From positions 19,757-83,756 of the IMG/VR virus record IMGVR_UViG_3300021197_001243: DNA of 64,000 bases; one strand, written 5' to 3'. This DNA is from a virus. The notes beneath the pieces are model-generated. The model made no database searches. It had not been told where the DNA came from and saw only the letters and a list, made by a program, of their open reading frames with translations. Made by a program: the position numbers and the translations under genes. This document shows positions 572-61,021 of this stretch, piece after piece. How positions within the stretch are numbered: position 1 is the first letter of the stretch; each line of letters begins with the position of its first letter.

Positions 572-3500
572 TTATTCTATTTGTCCTACAAATTTTATAA
601 ATTGGTTATAGCCTGGTACAAAAGTTTCTGCTACTTCTCTTGGAAAACCTTTTGTCCTTGCATCTAACTCTTCACCTTTAAATGTTGCAGAGGTACTTCT
701 ATATCCTGCTTTTACTAGAGCAAATGCATCATCTACTAGACCTAAAGTAGGGATTGCAGATTGATTTAATTTTTGCAATTCTAAAGGATTCATTGCAAAA
801 GTAGTTTCAAGTATAACTTTTGCTAGTATGTCAGATAATAATCGTGTACCATAGTTGGTATTTTTTAAAGGCTCATCATCATCATTAAATCCTCTTGCTC
901 CGAACAGCATTCCTATAAGAGATAGTGTAAGAACTATTCGTGCCTCTGCAAGAAATGACCTTGTAGATGCCTCTCTCATTTCAATATATGATTCAAGATC
1001 TACTTGAAGCATATCAGGATCAGTAGTATTTGCTTTTACAAAATCTAATTCTAATTGTATTGCAGCTCTTTGCCTTTTATATCTTTCTTCTTTTGCCTCA
1101 CTCCATTTATTTTTAGATTCAAGTCTTGCTTTTCTTTCGGCACTTACAGTATAAGATCGTAAAAAGGCAAGATGTGAAAATGCATTATAAACTCTTTCTA
1201 AAGCTGCTGCTGTTGATGCTAAGTATCCGTTAGTTTCATCTGTAGACTGCTTACCAAGAATAGCTCGCATTCCCCCAATAAATCTACCTTCTACAGGAGC
1301 ATCTTCGATATAATCATATCGTCTTCCCCCATATCTTTTAAGTACAAATGCAGGTGCCCACCATTTGAATGTACCTAGTAATCTAAAAGCTAATTCTGTG
1401 TGAGCTGCCACTATATTATCCTCTCCTTGCTCACCTTTTATTCCTCCTACTACCTTTTTTACTACCTGTCTAAACTGTGTAAATGCTTCATCAGGTAAAG
1501 CATCTAAATCTACTACAACCTCTCCGGTTTTCTTATCCACTGTAGATTTCTCTGAAACTATCTCTAGTATTGATTTTGATCCTTCAGGTAATTGATTTAG
1601 CCTTTTTACAAGACCATCTTTACCTAATCCATAGTTTTGCATCATAGCTACAGCAACAGTTCTATCTATAGATCTATCTGTCATACCTAAAGGTTCATAC
1701 ATAAATGATGTATCAAGATTTCTTGTTAGCACAGTAGCATGCATTCTTCTTCCTCTATGATACTCTCTACCTTGTGTATGCAAGTTAAAATAGTCTGTTA
1801 TACCATAGTAAAAATCTCTATCCTTAGCAAACATTAGTAGAGAGTCTGATAGTTCTTTTGTTCCGTAATGAACTCCTCCCATACCTTCTACATATGTAAA
1901 TAAACTACCTGCTATTTTAGTAGATATTGCAAGTTTTACAGGTACAGATATCTTCATATAACTAAAAAGAGCGTTAAGCTTACTTACAAGCTTTTGCATA
2001 CTTACATTACCTATAATCTTATCCTTACTACTATAAGAATGTCCGTACATATAGTAGTTAAAGAATTGGTCAAATAATTTAAGAGTATCTGGATCTAGAC
2101 CTTCTTCATCTAATACAGGTTTACCTGATTCTCGTATTATTTCTGTTCCTCTTTTTGTAGATTTTGTTTTTAATTGCTGCCCTGCTAAATGTTTAGTATG
2201 TAATTGATGTCTTAAGAACAGCATTTCAGATTCTATCTTAGACTTTTCGATATAATTATAAATGCTTGCTCCCATCATATACATAGACCTAGACAAATCT
2301 CTTGATACAAGCTGAGAAGATTTATCTCCTTTTCTATTTTTAAGTGCATTTATAAAAGGTAACGGTACTTTTTGTATAGGATTACCCCCGCTTGTATCAT
2401 CTTCATCTACTTTGACAGCAAATCCTCTTGACCACCAATCTTGTATAAAATCTTTACTGAATATATCTTTTCCTCTTGTAAAATTTTCAATAAGAGTTTT
2501 TCTAACTGTAGGAATAGTATTGCCAGATAGATATACTCCATCCATTTCTTCATTATACTCTCTAAGCTGCTCTTTCCAAGCATTAAAGTATGTTAAAAGA
2601 GCCTCATTCCCAGGCTGATTAAGTTTTTCAAAACTTTCACTCCATACTTCTTTGGCATATTCAGGTTTTACTTCTAAGTACATCCAGTATTTAGGTGATG
2701 CCCAAGCAGAAGGGTTTCCTCCAAACACATTATAATTATCCTTAAAAGATTTTAGATACGCATTATAGGCTTTTCCTTTGTTAGGATATTCTCTTTTTAA
2801 GTACTCTATTCTTTTTTTAAGAGCTTTATTATAAGACTCTTTAGCCCCTTCTTTTATCTGGAATCTTTCTTTCATCCAGGCTACAGATTCTTTTTTTACT
2901 TCATCAGGTACACCTACTTTTTCTAGTACCTCTTCCCAAAACTCTTTTTTAAACATTGGGATAAGTTTTAACTCTTCTCCCGTATCCTCTATAAACATTT
3001 CATATACATCTACAAGAGACATATTTTTGCTTTCAGCATACAGTTGTAAAGACTCATCTAGGTTAAACCACTTTCTTCTAAGCTCTTCAACTCTACGAGC
3101 TATGATATCATGAGTAATATTTATTCTTCTTTTGCCTTCTTGGAATATAGGATTCTCAATTTGATCCATAACTATAAACTTGTCCAAGAATCCAAGTCCT
3201 GCATAAGGTATTGTAGTATCTAATCTAGAGTTTACTAAACTTCTCCTAAGAAGTTCTTCCTCTATAATTTCAACTGCATCTTCTACAGACCTACTTAATT
3301 CTGCTATGTCATCGTAAACAGCAGTTTTTTCTTTTTTAGTTTTTAAAGATTTAGCCTTACGAACCATCACAGCGTTTATATCAGAAAACATTTGTAACAG
3401 ATCTAAAGAATGCTGTAATTCATCAAAAGACATATAGTTCTCTGAATCTTCATCTGAAATAGATGCATAATCAGTAGCTTTATTTATAGTCTCATTTAGA

Positions 3501-48907: not shown

Positions 48908-49350
48908 TTCCTTTTGCTTTTCCGGTATTTTTCAATCTTTTCGGAAAAGGAAAGGTCTTTAAGTGGTCTTTCAACAACTCCGCCTGCTCGGTATTGTGTA
49001 GGGTTTTCTATAACTGTATCTACCTTTGGACCCATAGGAACATTGTCTATTCCAGGAGGAACAGCTTCGTAAGATCTTACAAGTCCTCCTTGAGAGTCAA
49101 ATCCTTGCATATCTACAGGATAGTCCATACCCATTGTATTAAAATCTTGTCCTCCAGTGTTAGGAAAAGCCATAGATCTTGGTGGGCCCTCAGTTAATCC
49201 TATTTGTTGTTCTTGAGGAGTAGATGCTATATCCATACCTTGTTGCTCTTGCATATTTAAGGCTTCTTGCTGGTCTATAAGCTCAGTTATACTTCCAAAA
49301 TAAGCAGGATCAGACTCCCAAGCACTTCGCATTATATCTAAAGCATCCAT
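48904..49350 (-). CDS. Small portal-adjacent protein
   Basis: 148 residues. The start overlaps the portal gene stop by one base (TAATG), and the end overlaps the giant modular gene by ATGA. The first third is acidic and Gln-rich; a middle part is Gly/Pro/Met-rich (GLTEGPPRSMAFPNTGG) and the C-terminus is basic (FSEKIEKYRKSKRK). RAGGVVERPL and QGGLVRSYE are weak relatives of the KYQ/GG motif in the next gene. Function unknown; co-assembly with the portal or modular protein is inferred. Confidence 0.45.
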   Translation of the reverse strand: MDALDIMRSAWESDPAYFGSITELIDQQEALNMQEQQGMDIASTPQEQQIGLTEGPPRSMAFPNTGGQDFNTMGMDYPVDMQGFDSQGGLVRSYEAVPPGIDNVPMGPKVDTVIENPTQYRAGGVVERPLKDLSFSEKIEKYRKSKRK

Positions 49351-51563
49351 TATTTTTTATCTTTTTTATTTGCTGCTTTACGAGAGATATCTTCTTTAGC
49401 CCTATTAGATCTTTCTTTTTCACTTAACTCTCTTTCTTTTATAGCGTTAGCTTTATCTTGATAGCTATTATCTACGGGAGGTGGAGGCATTTCTTCTTTA
49501 TTTGCAATCTCCGCAACTTCAATTTTTGTATCTCTGTCAAGCTGCATATTCATATTGTGATCTTTTCTCTCTTGCTCTTTAAGTGCAACTTCTGCTTGAC
49601 GTAATTCTTGTTCAGCCTGACTTTGAGCCGCTTCAAGTTCTTGCATTTCTGCTTCAGCTTCTTTGATCTTATCTTTCATCATAATGAAGCTTTCAGAATC
49701 AACTATGTCTGCCACTGTACTTGCAGCTATACCGTTTTGTAGCATACCCATACCTAACTCTTTCATTAGATTAAGTTTTTCAAGCTCTTTAGTAGCATCT
49801 GATACAAAAATTCCTAAGTCCGCCTCTAAGTAAGGTAAAGGGTCTATACTTAAAAACTCTACAGCTCCGTCAGGCATTACATACTGTGCTTTTTTACCAG
49901 TTATCCATGCTTCTTTAGAGTAATCTAATAAAGCTTGTAAATCTCTTTGTTCCACTCCAGCAAATTTCCTGTAAAGATCCTCAGTGGTATGTGCACTCTG
50001 TACGATAGCCTGCTGACTTGTAGCTTTACCATCATATTCAGACATCCCACCCATTCTTTGACGGTTAACACCTGAAACTCTCTCCCATTCTACTTGAATA
50101 GAATTAAGTAGTTCAACATAAGTACCCATTGTCTTCATAGAAAGGTCAAGCACAGACTGATGTTGTGGACTCAGTTTTACTCCTTCTTTGTTGTAGTCTA
50201 TCCAGGCAATACCTGTACCTTCTACGTAGTACATGAATTTATCCATGTCCCATTTCTTAGGGATAAGGTTAATATCAAGTTGGGCAATAATATCTTTAGA
50301 TCTAGCTATAGCTAATTCAAGTCGATACTTATAAGTATTATAATTCAATTGGTAAGGTACCCCTAACATAACTAGAGATACATTCCTTGAATTTATATCT
50401 GAGTATTTTCTACCGTTTATAGGTAGTTTATTTTTTGAAGGGTTATCTATCGACATTCTTTGGTTGTCGAAAGGTCTCATATTAATATAAAGATCATCCC
50501 CAATACATATTCCTTGATAAACAAGGTTATGCCACTCCCATTCTATTTTAGCACCAAATTCTTTCAGTTCTGGTGGGATTCTAAATCCGTCTTCCACTTC
50601 CATTGTCTCCATACCTCCTGTTTCAGGATCGAAGAAGGTCATAAACCCTGTTCTTTGCATGGATTGCCAGTAAAGTATCCTTACCCGTACAAGTCGGTCT
50701 CTTAACTCTTCTTGTCTATTGACATAATTAGAGTCATAGAAAAACCCTGCATCACCTGCACTCTGAAACACCTGATCAATTTGTTCAGGGGTAAGGTCTC
50801 TCCCCCATTTTTCTACTACAGAAGATGGATGCATGTATTTGGTTACCATTGCCCAATCACCATCCTCTACATAGTCTAAATCCGGATCTAGATCATAGTC
50901 TACATCTAAGGGGTTAAGAATATCATAAAATACTTCGTCATTTCTTACACCTCGCTCCGTGTAGCATTCTCCTGCTACTAAAAAGTGAAACCAGGCTTTT
51001 TGAATTTTTTCATGTACCTGACAATGTTGGAGAATGTAATTCATTCCCTTTTGTCCTAAGATAGCTCTTGTGTCAGTGTAACTCCTGTCGAACATTTTTG
51101 CTAGTTCTTCAGGTAGTTGAGGCTGTTCTTGAGTTGGAACTCCTGTTTCCATACCCATAACATTTAATTCATTTACAAAAGCTTGTTTCATAGATTCTAA
51201 AACAACTGCTTTCTTCTCCTCTTCCATACGGGAAACGGAGTCCGAATTCTGCACGGTCACTGTATAGCTGAACGGACGCTTTGCCTTTTCCCCGAGAAGT
51301 AGGTCAATAATCGGTTTAATAAGGGGATAGTTGCGCATTTTTGAAGGGAAGTTCTTACGGGCTTTGCCGTAAGGCTGCACAACATACTGATAGTCGTCAT
51401 CGTGTATAACACCATTGTAGTAATCGTACAGCTTTCGGAGCTCCTCTTTCCTGTAAGTTCTTCCGTCTTCGGCAATAGAAAAATAGGACTCCATCGTATC
51501 GATGGCCCATTGTTTAGTTTTTCTTGCCTGTGGTATTCTTTGATTTGGTATCTCGCTATACAT
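49350..51563 (-). CDS. Portal protein
   Basis: 737 residues. Helical start, then KMRNYPLIKPIIDLLLGEKA, a hallmark of crAss-like portals; a central region with LDVDYDLDPDLDYVEDGDW and MKTMGTYVELLNSIQVEWER; and a long C-terminal helix rich in Glu, Lys and Gln (about 640-737), probably the barrel or crown. The dodecamer forms the DNA gate and docks the terminase and ring proteins. It lies 75 bases after TerL. That gap contains AATGCCTT/AAGGTATT, a weak hairpin. Confidence 0.85.
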   Translation of the reverse strand: MYSEIPNQRIPQARKTKQWAIDTMESYFSIAEDGRTYRKEELRKLYDYYNGVIHDDDYQYVVQPYGKARKNFPSKMRNYPLIKPIIDLLLGEKAKRPFSYTVTVQNSDSVSRMEEEKKAVVLESMKQAFVNELNVMGMETGVPTQEQPQLPEELAKMFDRSYTDTRAILGQKGMNYILQHCQVHEKIQKAWFHFLVAGECYTERGVRNDEVFYDILNPLDVDYDLDPDLDYVEDGDWAMVTKYMHPSSVVEKWGRDLTPEQIDQVFQSAGDAGFFYDSNYVNRQEELRDRLVRVRILYWQSMQRTGFMTFFDPETGGMETMEVEDGFRIPPELKEFGAKIEWEWHNLVYQGICIGDDLYINMRPFDNQRMSIDNPSKNKLPINGRKYSDINSRNVSLVMLGVPYQLNYNTYKYRLELAIARSKDIIAQLDINLIPKKWDMDKFMYYVEGTGIAWIDYNKEGVKLSPQHQSVLDLSMKTMGTYVELLNSIQVEWERVSGVNRQRMGGMSEYDGKATSQQAIVQSAHTTEDLYRKFAGVEQRDLQALLDYSKEAWITGKKAQYVMPDGAVEFLSIDPLPYLEADLGIFVSDATKELEKLNLMKELGMGMLQNGIAASTVADIVDSESFIMMKDKIKEAEAEMQELEAAQSQAEQELRQAEVALKEQERKDHNMNMQLDRDTKIEVAEIANKEEMPPPPVDNSYQDKANAIKERELSEKERSNRAKEDISRKAANKKDKK

Positions 51564-51638
51564 TCTTACAAAGTTACTTTATACTTATGATGACTCTTAG
51601 TACCTACAGATTTTTAAAATACCTTTTATAATAAGGCA

Positions 51639-53615
51639 TTATTTATACTGTTGGTCAAACCAGTCGTCAACAGATCTGTCCCCTAATACTTCAGAAACTT
51701 CTGCGTTATAAAGTTCTTGGGTATGATACATACCTATCATAAGCGCCATAACTCGGTCAAAGTTGCCTTTATGATTGAACTTTATTAGTTCCTGCAATAG
51801 CGCAAGATCGTAAATTTTATGGACATTATAAAGTTGTTTCCCATCTACATCTTTTCCTCGAGGTGTTTGTAGCCAATCTCGTATGTAAAGTTCCCCTTGT
51901 TTTTTACGAGCCTCAGTCATATGCATACCATAGTTTCTCTTTACTGTCCGGGATTGAAGTTCTTTTTTATTAAGCATTTCAAACTCCTCTTGTAAAAAGT
52001 GCAGCTTCCTAAATCTTTTAGCAAAACTTATAACATCACCACGGTCATTTTCAAAACCTATCTTCGCGTTATAATACTGTGATAAGAGAAACATAATATT
52101 GTTAAATTCATCCTGGGACTTAGGTCTCCCAACGTAAGACGCTACGATCATATCATCAGGCTTTGAAACATTATTAACCCTCTTTATAACATAGGCCGCA
52201 CCTAATGATCTAGAGTCACTAGATTGATTTTGTCCATAAGGGTCATGACATAAGAAGTAGAGGAGGTTAGGGGCTTTACCTTCTACTTTATGGGGTGTTT
52301 CATATACTACTACAGCTCCGTTTATATCGTCTCCTTTCCTATGTGGGTATTTAGTTATCTGCTTTCTATCTCCGTTAGGTTTAAATATAACTTCCCCTTT
52401 AGCGCTAGTAGTAAGATCTCCAGCTGTACCTAAAGCATGTAAAGCCTTCGCCCTAACTCTATTGTATTGTTCCTGGATAAGTGCAAGATCAAATAAATTA
52501 GATGAGACTTGTAGAGTTGCTTCTGCAGGTGAGAAAGGATGCTCTGCTAAATACTGATCATAAGCACTTGCGTCGTTCCCACCTCTTTTCTTCTCTCTTT
52601 CTCCTGCCTCAAATTCTTTAGCTTCTGCTATAAGTGAGTTTCCTTCATCATCTATAAAGCCATCTAAGATCTCATAGATAGGTACAAAGTACCCGCACCG
52701 GGTCCCTGACATTCCTTCATCCCATACATTTTCAAATGCCATGCAGTCATAAGTATCAGGATGATAGAATAATTCTTCAAGGGCTTCAAAGCCATCCCCC
52801 TCTGTACCACCTGTACCGAAGGCTATCATTGTACCTAGGGTTTTGTTACCCTGTCTCATAGTTGGCATAGCCATACCCCACGCTTCTAAAAGACCAGGGA
52901 AAGCACCGGCCTCTTCAAAGAATATAAGTTCGCCTGCTTTACCCCTTACTTTATCAGGGTCATCTTTTAGTGATACTCCTGCTATAGAGGCTTGCATACC
53001 TGCATCTACAAACTGCCCACTAACTTTCTTTTTATACCCTGAAGTTTTAGCCATTGCTGTATCTAGTAGTCTAGGCTGTGTCCAGGCTGTATTAGAGTCA
53101 ATAAAGTTTACAATCTCCCATGCTTTTGTAAGGATTGCATCTACCCCGGTCAAGTACTCCTTCATACCTGCAAACACAAAGTTCTTAGAGTTCTTTATAA
53201 GGAAATAGTTTCTTGCAAGCATAGAAGCTGCTTTATAAGAGTATCCTTTACGACGTGCTTTAAGAACCACCATATGCTTGTCCTCATCCCTACATTTTTC
53301 TAAGTGAGAGAAGTATTTGTGGTCATTATCATAGAACCTAGGCCAGTACTGCTTTCTCATAGGTCTAGTGGATCCATCAGGAAGTATTTCATCTTTTACC
53401 ACCTTGATTCTACAGTAGTTAAGATAGAAATAGTGGAAACCTGAAACTGTTATATCTCCTTCAGGTGTGGTATATCCGTATAGGCATCTTTTCTTTTCTT
53501 CATCCCAGAAGTCGTAATAAGCTTTAGTTCCTTTTGGTGCGGGAGTATAAAAACCGTGCTCATCAAAGTAATTAGCCGCAGGAGAAAGTCTATGTGTATC
53601 CTTAAATTTATTCAC
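51639..53615 (-). CDS. Terminase large subunit
   Basis: 658 residues. The ATPase part has a phosphate-binding loop KARRKGYSYKAA (about 119-130), unusual in lacking the standard GxGKS, and a Walker B strand GELIFFEEAG (about 226-235). The RNase H-fold nuclease part has CHDPYGQNQSSDSRSL (about 455) and FENDRGDVISFAKRF (about 528). It cuts concatemeric DNA and drives it through the portal. It overlaps the upstream 172-residue gene by 8 bases. Confidence 0.85.
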   Translation of the reverse strand: MNKFKDTHRLSPAANYFDEHGFYTPAPKGTKAYYDFWDEEKKRCLYGYTTPEGDITVSGFHYFYLNYCRIKVVKDEILPDGSTRPMRKQYWPRFYDNDHKYFSHLEKCRDEDKHMVVLKARRKGYSYKAASMLARNYFLIKNSKNFVFAGMKEYLTGVDAILTKAWEIVNFIDSNTAWTQPRLLDTAMAKTSGYKKKVSGQFVDAGMQASIAGVSLKDDPDKVRGKAGELIFFEEAGAFPGLLEAWGMAMPTMRQGNKTLGTMIAFGTGGTEGDGFEALEELFYHPDTYDCMAFENVWDEGMSGTRCGYFVPIYEILDGFIDDEGNSLIAEAKEFEAGEREKKRGGNDASAYDQYLAEHPFSPAEATLQVSSNLFDLALIQEQYNRVRAKALHALGTAGDLTTSAKGEVIFKPNGDRKQITKYPHRKGDDINGAVVVYETPHKVEGKAPNLLYFLCHDPYGQNQSSDSRSLGAAYVIKRVNNVSKPDDMIVASYVGRPKSQDEFNNIMFLLSQYYNAKIGFENDRGDVISFAKRFRKLHFLQEEFEMLNKKELQSRTVKRNYGMHMTEARKKQGELYIRDWLQTPRGKDVDGKQLYNVHKIYDLALLQELIKFNHKGNFDRVMALMIGMYHTQELYNAEVSEVLGDRSVDDWFDQQYK

Positions 53616-58193: not shown

Positions 58194-58409
58194 TCATAAT
58201 ATCAAGTTACCATCTTCATCAATATCGGGTATAATTCCCCACTCCGCTAACTCTTCTATCCATTGTGCCTCATCTGTAAATTCGTCAAATATCCAAATGG
58301 TGTCAAAGACTTGATTAGGATCAACCCAACCATAAGTTTTTACCTCTGTCCTTTCATTGTCGAAACAGATGTAATAAGTAGTAACTGAAGGATACTTAAT
58401 TTCGTTCAT
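58194..58409 (-). CDS. Small acidic protein before the holin
   Basis: 71 residues from ATG at 58409, 10 bases after the DUF285 gene stop. An upstream in-frame ATG at 58493 would overlap that gene by 74 bases with a poly-Gln lead and is rejected. The sequence is acidic and Trp-rich (TIWIFDEFTDEAQWIEELAE). Function unknown. Confidence 0.5.
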   Translation of the reverse strand: MNEIKYPSVTTYYICFDNERTEVKTYGWVDPNQVFDTIWIFDEFTDEAQWIEELAEWGIIPDIDEDGNLIL

Positions 58410-58419
58410 TGTCTTTGTT

Positions 58420-59574
58420 TTAAGCGATTCCACCATCTGTAATAGCACCAAACTTTGTAACCAAAGATGCTCTTGCTGCTGCTGCTGCACCACCGCCTGT
58501 GTATTTAGACCCTCCGAAGTTTACAGTTCCTGAATAACCAGGAGATCCTTGAGCATCCCAAGCAATAAGAGTGGCATCATAATTAGCAGTAGACATTCCT
58601 GTAATTCCATTCATAAACGTATTCATATTTGTCATAGATGCTGTAATATCCCACCCTGCAAGACTGCCTCTAAAAGCATCGCACTGGTTTAGCATATATT
58701 GAATATCTGTAAAATTACTTGTGTTCCAATTGCTAATATCACCGTTAAAACTGTCGGCACTATTAAATAATCTGTTTGTATTGCTAAGATTACTTGTGTT
58801 CCAAGAATCCACTCCTATACCTGTGAAACCTTCAGCATTTTGAAAAGCTGCGTATACACTAACACCTGACTTAAATGTCCATCCAGCTACACTTGAATTA
58901 AACCCATCAGCGTCTTTAAATGCCTCATACATACTGTCTAGCCCAGAAACATCCCAAGTTGAAAGTGGTTGGTTAAACGCAACCGCAGACATAAACATTC
59001 CCCTAATAGTAGTGGTGTTAGATGTTACCCATCCTGCTAAACTACCGTTAAATCGAAGTGAGTTTCTAAACACTTCTTGCATATTAGTAACCGTACTTGT
59101 ATCCCAATCACTAAAATCTGGGGTAGTTATTAAATCGCAATTGTAAAACATTCGATAGAATGTAGTTGCTGATATTTTTGGATAATCTGTTGCTGTTATT
59201 GTTAGGTTAGCACAGTCTTTAAAGGCGTTACTTCCCGAAGTAATATCTAATATTCCCCATTGAGAAATCTCTGTTATTTTAAGATAATCTCCTGCACCTG
59301 CAAAATTAAATCCCTTTAATACAGTACCTGTAATAGTAATGGTATAAATTCCACCTGATGCGTATGTGTGCGCTCGATTAGCATAAGACAAATCAGATGT
59401 TGAACTATCTCCCCAATCAATCGTGCCGTCTTGTGCAGGGTCGTTATCAATAGGGAGAGAAAAACCATCTCCTGCTGATTTAGATGTGTCAACAACTATA
59501 GAAAATGGAAGTACTGCCGCGGCACCTCCACCTTTACGAAATGGTACTCCTATGCCGTTTCCTAAGATTTGCAT
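58420..59574 (-). CDS. DUF285/BspA-like repeat protein with PKD-like N-terminal domain
   Basis: 384 residues. Residues about 35-90 contain TIDWGDSSTSD and HTYASGGIYTITITG, the hallmarks of a PKD-like domain. From about 125 there are at least seven repeats of the form F..C/A..F...L..W.TSNxTNMxxMF (for example DFSDWDTSTVTNMQEVF, LAGWVTSNTTTIRGMF, DSWNTSNLSNTNRLF), matching DUF285/BspA-type surface repeats. In bacteria these are adhesin or surface proteins. No signal peptide is seen, so it is probably a virion adhesin for glycan or host-surface binding, possibly acquired from the host. Confidence 0.7.
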   Translation of the reverse strand: MQILGNGIGVPFRKGGGAAAVLPFSIVVDTSKSAGDGFSLPIDNDPAQDGTIDWGDSSTSDLSYANRAHTYASGGIYTITITGTVLKGFNFAGAGDYLKITEISQWGILDITSGSNAFKDCANLTITATDYPKISATTFYRMFYNCDLITTPDFSDWDTSTVTNMQEVFRNSLRFNGSLAGWVTSNTTTIRGMFMSAVAFNQPLSTWDVSGLDSMYEAFKDADGFNSSVAGWTFKSGVSVYAAFQNAEGFTGIGVDSWNTSNLSNTNRLFNSADSFNGDISNWNTSNFTDIQYMLNQCDAFRGSLAGWDITASMTNMNTFMNGITGMSTANYDATLIAWDAQGSPGYSGTVNFGGSKYTGGGAAAAARASLVTKFGAITDGGIA

Positions 59575-59578
59575 TTTC

Positions 59579-59893
59579 CTACAGCATATAGATTACACAA
59601 CTACCACTACTCATTGTAATGGCTGTAATCTGTGATCCTTTAGGTACTGGAAAGTATGCCCCCGCTTTAACAGTTACACCATTCAATCCGTAGTTAGTTA
59701 GTTGAACCACTCCATCTACAGTGAATACTGTAAACACTGTATCCTCTTGTACTACCACTGAATATCCTGTCAATGCTGTGTGAGCTCCTGTACCTGTAAG
59801 ATTCTTAAACCCACCTGTAGCTATAATATTATTAAGGTCTGTAGAGTTTTGCGCAGATATCTTTGCAAAGCTTTCTCCTGTTGTTAATCCCAT
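59579..59893 (-). CDS. Small virion beta protein
   Basis: 104 residues, uncharged and Thr/Val/Gly-rich, with beta-strand pattern (YSVVVQEDTVFTVFTVDG, VTVKAGAYFPVPKGSQITAI). It is the second gene of the late block. Composition and position suggest a virion surface or fibre-associated protein. No family recognised. Confidence 0.45.
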   Translation of the reverse strand: MGLTTGESFAKISAQNSTDLNNIIATGGFKNLTGTGAHTALTGYSVVVQEDTVFTVFTVDGVVQLTNYGLNGVTVKAGAYFPVPKGSQITAITMSSGSCVIYML

Positions 59894-59912: not shown

Positions 59913-60275
59913 TTATGCTTTCTTCCAATATGCATACTCTAGTACGCAGCTAGCTGTATCAGCTCTTGCTTCTACACCTGCACTATCATTCACTGGAAAG
60001 AAACAGAACTCTCCTGGACTAAGCCTAGCATATTGTACACTAGCTGTAGTTTGAAGAATTACAAAGTTAGTTGCATCTGTGTTCTTTGCATAAAAGTAAT
60101 ACACTCCACTTACTGCCTCATCTACAATCTCTTGATTGTCTGCAGTAGTAATAGTCAACCTTGACATACCTACAATAGGAGCTCCAATTGTTAAAGCGTC
60201 TGTTACAGTTAAGGCTAAAGACTCTGATGTTGCATCGGTACTCGTCAGTGCCAATGTTGCTGTTAATGTTGCCAT
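59913..60275 (-). CDS. First gene of the late block, small virion beta protein (paralogue)
   Basis: 120 residues. The second half is clearly related to the 119-residue protein at 31217-31576 (KNTDATNFV, LSPGEFCFFPVNDSAGVEAR, EYAYW). The first half is Thr/Leu-rich beta. The purine-rich AGAGGGAAAGAAAAAAAG (minus strand, about 40 bases upstream) and the structured RNA at 60330-60621 precede it. Confidence 0.55.
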   Translation of the reverse strand: MATLTATLALTSTDATSESLALTVTDALTIGAPIVGMSRLTITTADNQEIVDEAVSGVYYFYAKNTDATNFVILQTTASVQYARLSPGEFCFFPVNDSAGVEARADTASCVLEYAYWKKA

Positions 60276-60329
60276 TTTATAAGTTATTTATCGCGTTAAA
60301 TATTCTTTTTTTCTTTCCCTCTAAGATAT

Positions 60330-60347
60330 AAAAAATCCCTTGAGGGA
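60330..60347 (-). terminator. Short terminator-like hairpin at the end of the structured RNA
   Basis: On the - strand TCCC-TCAA-GGGA is followed by TTTTTT. The stem is only four pairs, so termination may be weak or conditional. It is 55 bases upstream of the first late gene. Confidence 0.45.
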
Positions 60348-60621
60348 ATTTATTTCAGTTCCTTCTACTCTTTCAATCAGGATTTAGACTCCGCCAGTGC
60401 TTCCTTCAGATACCTAGGGTTGACCTTCTTGGTGTTAATTCACCTACACTTACCTATGTGTCGCCTTACGGCAGTCAACCCAAACTGAGTCCTATGTTCC
60501 ATCTCTTCTGTATCCTATCGGAGAAAACTCCACCTCTATTTAAGGCTACAATCCGACTTCTGACCCCTTACTGCACCATTACGGTTCCTCGTGGGTGATC
60601 ACTTTCGTGGGATACGGTTAC
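60330..60621 (-). ncRNA. Candidate structured RNA or leader upstream of the late block
   Basis: No gene is seen in 60276-60760. Read on the - strand, it folds densely. Long-range pairs: GTATCC (60615-60610) with GGATAC (60515-60510), GGGTTGAC (60481-60474) with GTCAACCC (60424-60417), and GACTC (60491-60487) with GAGTC (60391-60387). Local hairpins: CAC-GAAA-GTG (60609-60600), GGAG-TTTT-CTCC (60531-60520), GCC-GTAA-GGC (60472-60463) and GGTG-AATTAA-CACC (60444-60431). Two loops are GNRA tetraloops. It ends in a short TCCC/GGGA hairpin plus six U. It may be a free RNA or a leader that controls read-through into the late genes. The class is not recognised. Confidence 0.6.
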
Positions 60622-60682
60622 AAAATTAGTATAAAAAATTCTTAATCCACCAAAAAAATTTTTGAAGAGGGAAAATTTTTGA

Positions 60683-60741
60683 ATGCGGGTACCTACTTAG
60701 AGAACACCCCGTATCATAATTGAGTTTTTAAAATCAATTAT
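60683..60741 (+). promoter_or_regulatory. Two inverted repeats in the leader of the rightward genes
   Basis: ATGCGGG (60683-60689) can pair with CCCGTAT (60708-60714). ATAATTGA (60716-60723) pairs perfectly with TCAATTAT (60734-60741) around an AT-rich middle. Both lie directly upstream of the gene at 60761. They could be operators or 5' message hairpins. No clear Bacteroidota TAnnTTTG promoter was found. Confidence 0.35.
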
Positions 60742-60760
60742 TTAATCAAAATTATCAAAA

Positions 60761-61021
60761 ATGGACGAATTAACATTCTATTTTATCAAATTTATCGCTG
60801 AATATCGTATGATAGTCATCGAAACTGAGATTGACGAGGAACCTGAAGAGCTTCCTATCAAACTCACGCGCAAAAAGTTCGCTAAGGCTCAAGCGCTAAA
60901 CCTTAAACTTGACGACATTGTTACCAATGCCGCCAAAACTAAGTTTCTACATGAGAGTATAGTGAAGAATTTCACTAAATCTCAAGGAGCTTCTAACTGG
61001 GGTGAGAAGCGTAAGAAATAA
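60761..61021 (+). CDS. Small hypothetical protein, first rightward gene
   Basis: 86 residues. The N-terminus is partly hydrophobic (LTFYFIKFIAEYRMIVIE), then an acidic EIDEEPEELPIKL and a basic C-terminus (SNWGEKRKK). A helical DNA- or protein-binding role is possible but not recognised. A-rich sequence (ATTATCAAAA) precedes the ATG. A strong terminator follows, so it forms its own transcription unit. Confidence 0.55.
   Translation: MDELTFYFIKFIAEYRMIVIETEIDEEPEELPIKLTRKKFAKAQALNLKLDDIVTNAAKTKFLHESIVKNFTKSQGASNWGEKRKK

Follow-up and report, generated by a model that had tools for sequence, protein, structure and literature searches.

A conserved two-domain RNA ahead of the late gene block of a crAss-like phage and its relatives

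Genomic location of the RNA

The window is the whole stretch of 64,000 nucleotides analysed here and forms part of an 83,756-base IMG/VR virus record. Its late block lies on the minus strand, starting at 60,275 and extending to about 0.6 kb, and includes a 4,324-aa ORF as well as packaging genes of crAss-like type (Table 1). Among named phages, the terminase has its relatives mainly in Crassvirales and Flavobacterium phages, at less than 45% identity, and the virus is a relative of the gut crAssphages. Its host is predicted to belong to the Bacteroidota because of the promoter type and the phage relatives. The 120-aa product of the first late gene had no match in PHROG or Pfam. A 384-aa minus-strand ORF (window 58194-59574) matches long uncharacterised PHROGs, and a 99-aa ORF in another frame (58194-58493) overlaps it near its 3' end, which suggests a frameshift or a small-gene overlap.

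The RNA described in this study sits between the minus-strand late block and a divergent plus-strand block starting at 60,761. The first-pass annotation had placed a dense RNA fold on the minus strand, 55 bases before the first late gene, and the distance from the end of the RNA to the ATG at 60275 is indeed about 55 nt.

Table 1. Positions of the RNA, its helices, the flanking signals and the neighbouring genes in the window
Feature	Position	Strand	Basis or description
-7 promoter element TAATTTTG (TAnnTTTG, Bacteroidota sigma-ABfr type)	60621..60628	-	sequence and relatives
Possible -33 element TTTG	60654-60651	-	sequence
5' domain, four-way junction P1/P2/P3/P4 with P3b and P4b	60502..60617	-	R1 match, covariation
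P1, closes the 5' domain, GUAUCC:GGAUAC	60615-60610:60515-60510	-	long-range helix
P2, GAAA loop	60609-60607:60602-60600	-	comparative model
P3	60596-60593:60566-60563	-	comparative model
P3b	60585-60583:60577-60575	-	comparative model
P4	60556-60552:60522-60518	-	comparative model
P4b	60545-60543:60535-60533	-	comparative model
3' domain, P5, P6, P7 with P8 and P9, P10	60324..60499	-	R3 match, covariation
P6, GGACUC:GAGUCU	60492-60487:60391-60386	-	long-range helix
P7, GGGUUGAC:GUCAACCC, carries P8, P9 and the local GCC-GUAA-GGC hairpin	60481-60474:60424-60417	-	
P7a hairpin, GUAA loop	60472-60463	-	comparative model
P8	60461-60458:60449-60446	-	comparative model
P9	60444-60441:60434-60431	-	comparative model
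RNA 3' end TTCCCTCAAGGGATTTTTTATATCT	60324..60350	-	conserved 3' motif, aligned in relatives
First late gene, 120 aa, downstream of the RNA	59913..60275	-	ORF
Packaging genes of the late block	49350..53615	-	terminase large subunit and portal, crAss-like type
Terminase large subunit	51639-53615	-	phrog_6681, E 1e-128
Portal	49350-51563	-	phrog_6547, E 9e-108
First gene of the divergent early-side block	60761..61021	+	ORF; divergent layout recurs in relatives

Structure and covariation

The RNA is about 290 nt long (minus strand, 60617-60324) and folds into two domains with about 12 helices. In the 5' domain, P3 carries a mostly GNRA-capped hairpin with GAGG/AGUA on its flanks, and P4 carries a conserved asymmetric internal loop and a hairpin. 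This domain contains the conserved sequences GGGTCAGAAGTYGGATTGTAG and GAGTTTTCTCCRATA, and the unpaired stretches GUCAGAAG, UUGUAG and GAGUUUUC around the four-way junction are highly conserved. The 3' domain is closed by P5 and P6, and the hairpin P10 precedes AGCACUG; P5 and P10 are weaker in the window. Its conserved sequences are AGCACTG and, at the 3' side, AAGGGA..TATATCT, and the 3' edge of the RNA is defined by RAGGGn..TRTATC. A further pairing, P11, between AAAUYC and the 3' GGGRUUU was dropped from the model because its register varies among members. The comparative model placed P1 to P4b, P6 to P9 and P7a on the minus strand, in agreement with the at least seven stems read from the single sequence; the two GNRA tetraloops noticed there are exact in P2 (GAAA) and P7a (GUAA), and the three long-range pairings correspond to P1, P6 and P7.

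Two covariance models were built, with the window left out of both. R1 covers the 5' domain (118 positions, 27 pairs) and was made from 13 phages of another clade, and R3 covers the 3' domain (152 positions, 35 pairs). Both found the held-out window, R1 at 60617-60502 with 68.9 bits (E = 1.7e-14 over 567 kb) and R3 at 60499-60324 with 48 bits (E = 2.5e-8 over 600 kb), these E-values being rough because the calibrations were short. The check by covariance model that had been proposed with the annotation thus came out positive. In the alignment underlying R1, 97.4% of cells pair, against at most 48.3% with the partners slid, and RNAalifold, unaided, recovered the same main 5'-domain helices except the short P3b hairpin.

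Compensatory changes, which had been named beforehand as the support to look for, are abundant, and this answers the refuting condition of no covariation among relatives. Among 36 matches to the 5' domain, 20 of the 27 pairs in its six helices have changed on both sides (171 cells); 96.6% of cells are paired, compared with no more than 48.9% after sliding, and none of 500 shuffles reached the covariation score. In 51 further loci the picture was the same. In the 3' domain, 23 of the 35 pairs show both-side changes and 88.3% of cells pair (at most 49.3% slid). P1 alternates between GUAUCC:GGAUAC, GAGAC:GUCUC, GAAGC:GCUUC, CUGGU:ACCAG and GACAC:GUGUC with 99-100% of its cells paired, all seven pairs of P6 carry compensatory changes, and P7 has 99.4% of cells paired with both-side changes in five of its seven pairs. 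At paired columns G-U exceeds A-C roughly twofold (14:8, 36:19 and 78:36), as expected for an RNA of the minus strand. In one relative, L100, the core, elsewhere invariant, reads GGGATTAGACATCGGATT and P4 has become AUCGGA:UCCGGU, and in the alignment of a second member set changed P3/P4 pairs occur in about half of the rows.

Folding energy was rejected as evidence for an RNA, since it is unremarkable on the minus strand (z = -0.49, with 63 of 200 shuffles folding as well); on the plus strand z was -2.09. Such an energy, together with the location at the divergence of two blocks, is what a chance fold or a DNA-level element (an origin, packaging site or recombination site) could show. The compensatory changes, including those to G-U, the excess of G-U over A-C at paired columns and the fixed promoter spacing described below speak against these explanations, which we regard as highly improbable. 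On comparative sequence grounds the region is a real RNA family, in its fold, its strand and its leader position.

Distribution and gene context

About 90 environmental phage loci share the 5' domain. Following the gene downstream of the RNA uncovered two loci where this RNA occupies the corresponding place (L027 with 84% identity and L003 with 69%), and the set of about 90 was gathered by pattern scans with motifs conserved among the first loci. The scan motifs were short and lay nearly all in the 5' domain, the first scan using one in the 3' domain; P1, P2, P4b and the 3'-domain helices, like promoter spacing and gene context, played no part in the selection and so serve as tests. Four divergent members (L040/L121, L041/L122, L042 and L046) gave no match in the R3 search and kept the 5' domain, and the 5' domain is therefore taken as the core. 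As a rule there is one copy per genome. Among 28 records with the 120-aa gene, many of them fragments, the RNA was found in seven, and an eighth match was due to chance. Other candidates were also set aside: L102 (G036) was a chance match in apparently coding DNA, and weak R3 matches at window 2459-2538 and in L118 were treated as chance.

Searching 50,697 phages with the RNA by blastn returned only chance matches, and bacterial genomes scanned by pattern yielded nothing beyond apparent chance matches (L047-L054), of which the five inspected look coding. Searches of twelve named crAss-like or Bacteroidota phages did not find the RNA (phi14:2, crAss001, crAss002, cr60_1, cr109_1, DAC15, ProJPt-Bp1, C0531BW4, Dulem 42, Fpv2, phi4:1 and phi13:1). 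For phi14:2, cr60_1 and Fpv2 the absence was confirmed with a second tool on complete or nearly complete sequence; it is weaker for the other nine, the initial look having given no candidates for any of the twelve. In a terminase tree, the RNA-bearing crAss-like phages fall in at least three places among named phages lacking the RNA, with long branches that make the exact placing unsure.

Nearly all loci with visible neighbours have a co-directional block after the RNA and opposite-strand genes before it. The block usually starts with GroES, followed by terminase and portal within 2-7 kb, and the first gene after the RNA varies by clade (a 120-aa gene, a 104-aa gene, GroES and others); in L036-L038 a homologue of 59579-59893 directly follows the RNA in place of the 120-aa gene. 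Part of this synteny reflects shared ancestry, because most contexts come from related crAss-like phages. L121 keeps the layout with an unrelated terminase (phrog_38) and a phrog_156 portal. L042 has a phrog_9 terminase and a Terminase_4 small subunit, and its RNA diverges from the packaging operon. In L046 a T4-type SSB lies nearby and the RNA follows co-oriented genes near the contig end. Other RNA features were also noted: a type-P1 twister ribozyme candidate at L040:6876-6927 (+), on the contig that carries the RNA, whose 54.5 bits are below the gathering score (E = 1.2e-9), a weak type III hammerhead-like match at L095:539-601 (-) with 27 bits (E = 0.036), and, in the gut phage cr60_1, an annotated tmRNA at L116:12121-12567 that overlaps tRNA-Leu.

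The usual position 2-7 kb upstream of terminase and portal, where co-expression would be expected, raises the question of a packaging RNA working with these two proteins. The phi29 pRNA is such a phage packaging RNA and is genetically close to the packaging genes, like the RNA studied here. Our RNA differs from it in size and fold and gave no Rfam match. Its core accompanies three unrelated large terminases (phrog_6681, phrog_38 and phrog_9) rather than one ATPase, and phages with related terminases such as cr60_1 are without it. Because of the three unrelated terminases, a packaging role is considered very unlikely.

Promoter and RNA ends

For the housekeeping sigma factor of Bacteroides, the -7 consensus is TAnnTTTG (PMC7366714). 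Of 31 members, 23 have this element 9-13 nt before the start of the RNA model, as do 74 of the 90 in the larger set, with a chance expectation of 0.026 per 36 nt. This fixed spacing sets the strand and puts the transcript start at or next to P1. The element is absent and the fold kept in L066, L067, L077 and L088. In L066 and L067 the stop codon of a co-oriented small ORF upstream runs directly into P1; compared with L055, they lack a stretch of about 28 nt separating the two.

The scan for intrinsic terminators called none on the minus strand at 60200-60900, and none was found near the RNA 3' end in 61 relatives. An intrinsic terminator as a conserved feature was therefore rejected, and the terminator-like end seen at first is read here as the local form of the RAGGGn..TRTATC motif. 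Since no relative has a terminator after the RNA, the transcripts probably read into the late genes.

In 36 of the 61 relatives a second TAnnTTTG follows the RNA at a distance of no more than 110 nt, often close to +50. In L093, L070 and L074, for example, it sits behind the RNA and ahead of the first late gene, which is often GroES. Members of the window clade have it overlapping the RNA 3' end; it is perfect in L037, L038, L003 and L043 and degenerate in the window itself (TATCTTAG). On the other side of the RNA, another conserved element, CCGGGGTG followed by GTAGG or similar, lies 93 nt before the RNA start (window 60685-60725, minus strand). All six members of the window clade have it at -93 or -94, whereas its distance differs in L043 and L123. 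An ACCC-type sequence often accompanies it and could close a hairpin, and the element may be part of the promoter or leader of the early (plus) side.

A leader that responds in cis to a ligand or protein and sets the timing of late gene expression, riboswitch-like or autoregulatory, would also stand at this position, and the conserved unpaired stretches around the four-way junction resemble a binding pocket. Against it, no conserved expression platform (no terminator) is present; moreover, the distance and sequence between the RNA and the first gene are variable, and the identity of that gene changes. We consider this explanation unlikely.

Discussion

The RNA could not be assigned to any catalogued class. 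None of the 4227 families of Rfam 15 matched the window at the gathering threshold, relaxed E-values returned chance-level matches only, and in 11 relatives no match lay over the RNA, in line with the first-pass annotation, which had found no known class to fit and had proposed a put-like antitermination RNA, a regulatory leader or an independent RNA. The RNA is probably a new class that helps to switch on or sustain late gene expression.

Among known systems, the put RNAs of HK022 act downstream of phage promoters without a phage protein; put is about 70 nt long with two stem-loops, and it suppresses termination and pausing by binding the zinc-binding domain of the RNA polymerase beta' subunit (PMC9378689). 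Like put, the RNA described here is a phage leader downstream of a promoter, heads a long operon of co-directional late genes and has no obvious dedicated protein partner. The put RNAs serve the early genes of a lambdoid phage, whereas this RNA precedes late genes, has Bacteroidota-type promoters and has about 290 nt, about 12 helices and two domains. It does not fit the size and two-stem-loop description of put and is not filed under that class. The EAR element is a structured RNA of about 120 nt in polysaccharide operons of Bacillales and is thought to make the transcription of long operons processive. The 5' domain is of similar size (about 120 nt), but EAR is chromosomal and belongs to another phylum, and neither the window nor the relatives gave an Rfam match.

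We infer, at a probability of about 0.4, that the RNA is a nascent leader which modifies the host RNA polymerase for long late transcription, put-like in its working. In crAss-like phages, transcription of the late genes is attributed to the host RNA polymerase, a view that is not firmly established (PMC10136315). The two-domain RNA would be transcribed on the minus strand from its own host-type promoter and would form the 5' leader of the late transcription block. As it emerges and folds, it may bind the elongation complex of the host polymerase or an elongation factor and make transcription of the very long block processive, by antitermination or anti-pausing. Activity would then reside in the conserved 5' domain as the core, with the variable 3' domain as an accessory, and the RNA would work like HK022 put or the EAR element while being related to neither.

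An element acting on the polymerase is the simplest explanation because the RNA is promoter-proximal, heads a block of up to 60 kb, precedes any first gene and is followed by no terminator. The change of first gene while the RNA stays points to an operon-wide rather than a gene-specific role. Two further observations argue for a leader: the fold is kept in the four relatives that lost the private promoter, two of which have the RNA directly after a co-oriented small ORF, and the RNA is at the head of the late operon in nearly all visible loci, including L121 with its unrelated terminase. On the other hand, late transcripts started at the second TAnnTTTG would lack the RNA, the RNA of L042 faces away from the terminase operon, that of L046 does not visibly head a late block, and the RNA has about four times the length of put.

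Some of these observations give weight to a structured RNA that stands alone and acts in trans, after the manner of ROOL and GOLLD. It would be transcribed from a promoter of its own in late infection, be released by processing and have a host target or a part in particle assembly, while the late genes would use the second, downstream promoter. Its own promoter and closed two-domain architecture, the second promoter element, the presence in phages with unrelated packaging genes, the non-leader contexts of L042 and L046, and the conservation of the 5' domain even where the 3' domain is replaced are all consistent with this reading. An independent, terminated small RNA gene would have its own promoter, as 74 of 90 loci do, and a 3' intrinsic terminator, as none of 61 relatives does; the retention of the fold after promoter loss and the near-invariant leader position also count against it. 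GOLLD and ROOL are elaborate phage RNAs of more than 600-800 nt near tRNA islands, and both have Rfam profiles (PMC12286853). The RNA here shares with GOLLD one conserved and one variable region and differs from both in its length of about 290 nt, its place at the early/late divergence and the lack of an Rfam match; the tRNA search found no tRNA in the 64-kb window, and there is accordingly no tRNA island. An independent RNA nevertheless keeps a substantial chance because of the second promoter and the two exceptional loci. It would be a possible, though rather doubtful, extension that the RNA represents a widespread new class of phage RNA, with a four-way-junction core in unrelated, probably Bacteroidota phages and interchangeable 3' domains, acting in trans on a conserved host machine in late infection by a mechanism novel among phage RNAs. 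Judged from its arrangement in these genomes, the leader position, the lack of a terminator and the independence from the first gene favour a leader acting in cis over the other options.

The RNA would be a family missing from Rfam, and alignments, covariance models and about 90 members are in hand for functional study. As a candidate that heads late blocks and is common to phages with unrelated packaging genes, it offers a direct and testable candidate for how crAss-like and other Bacteroidota phages may start or sustain late blocks tens of kb long.
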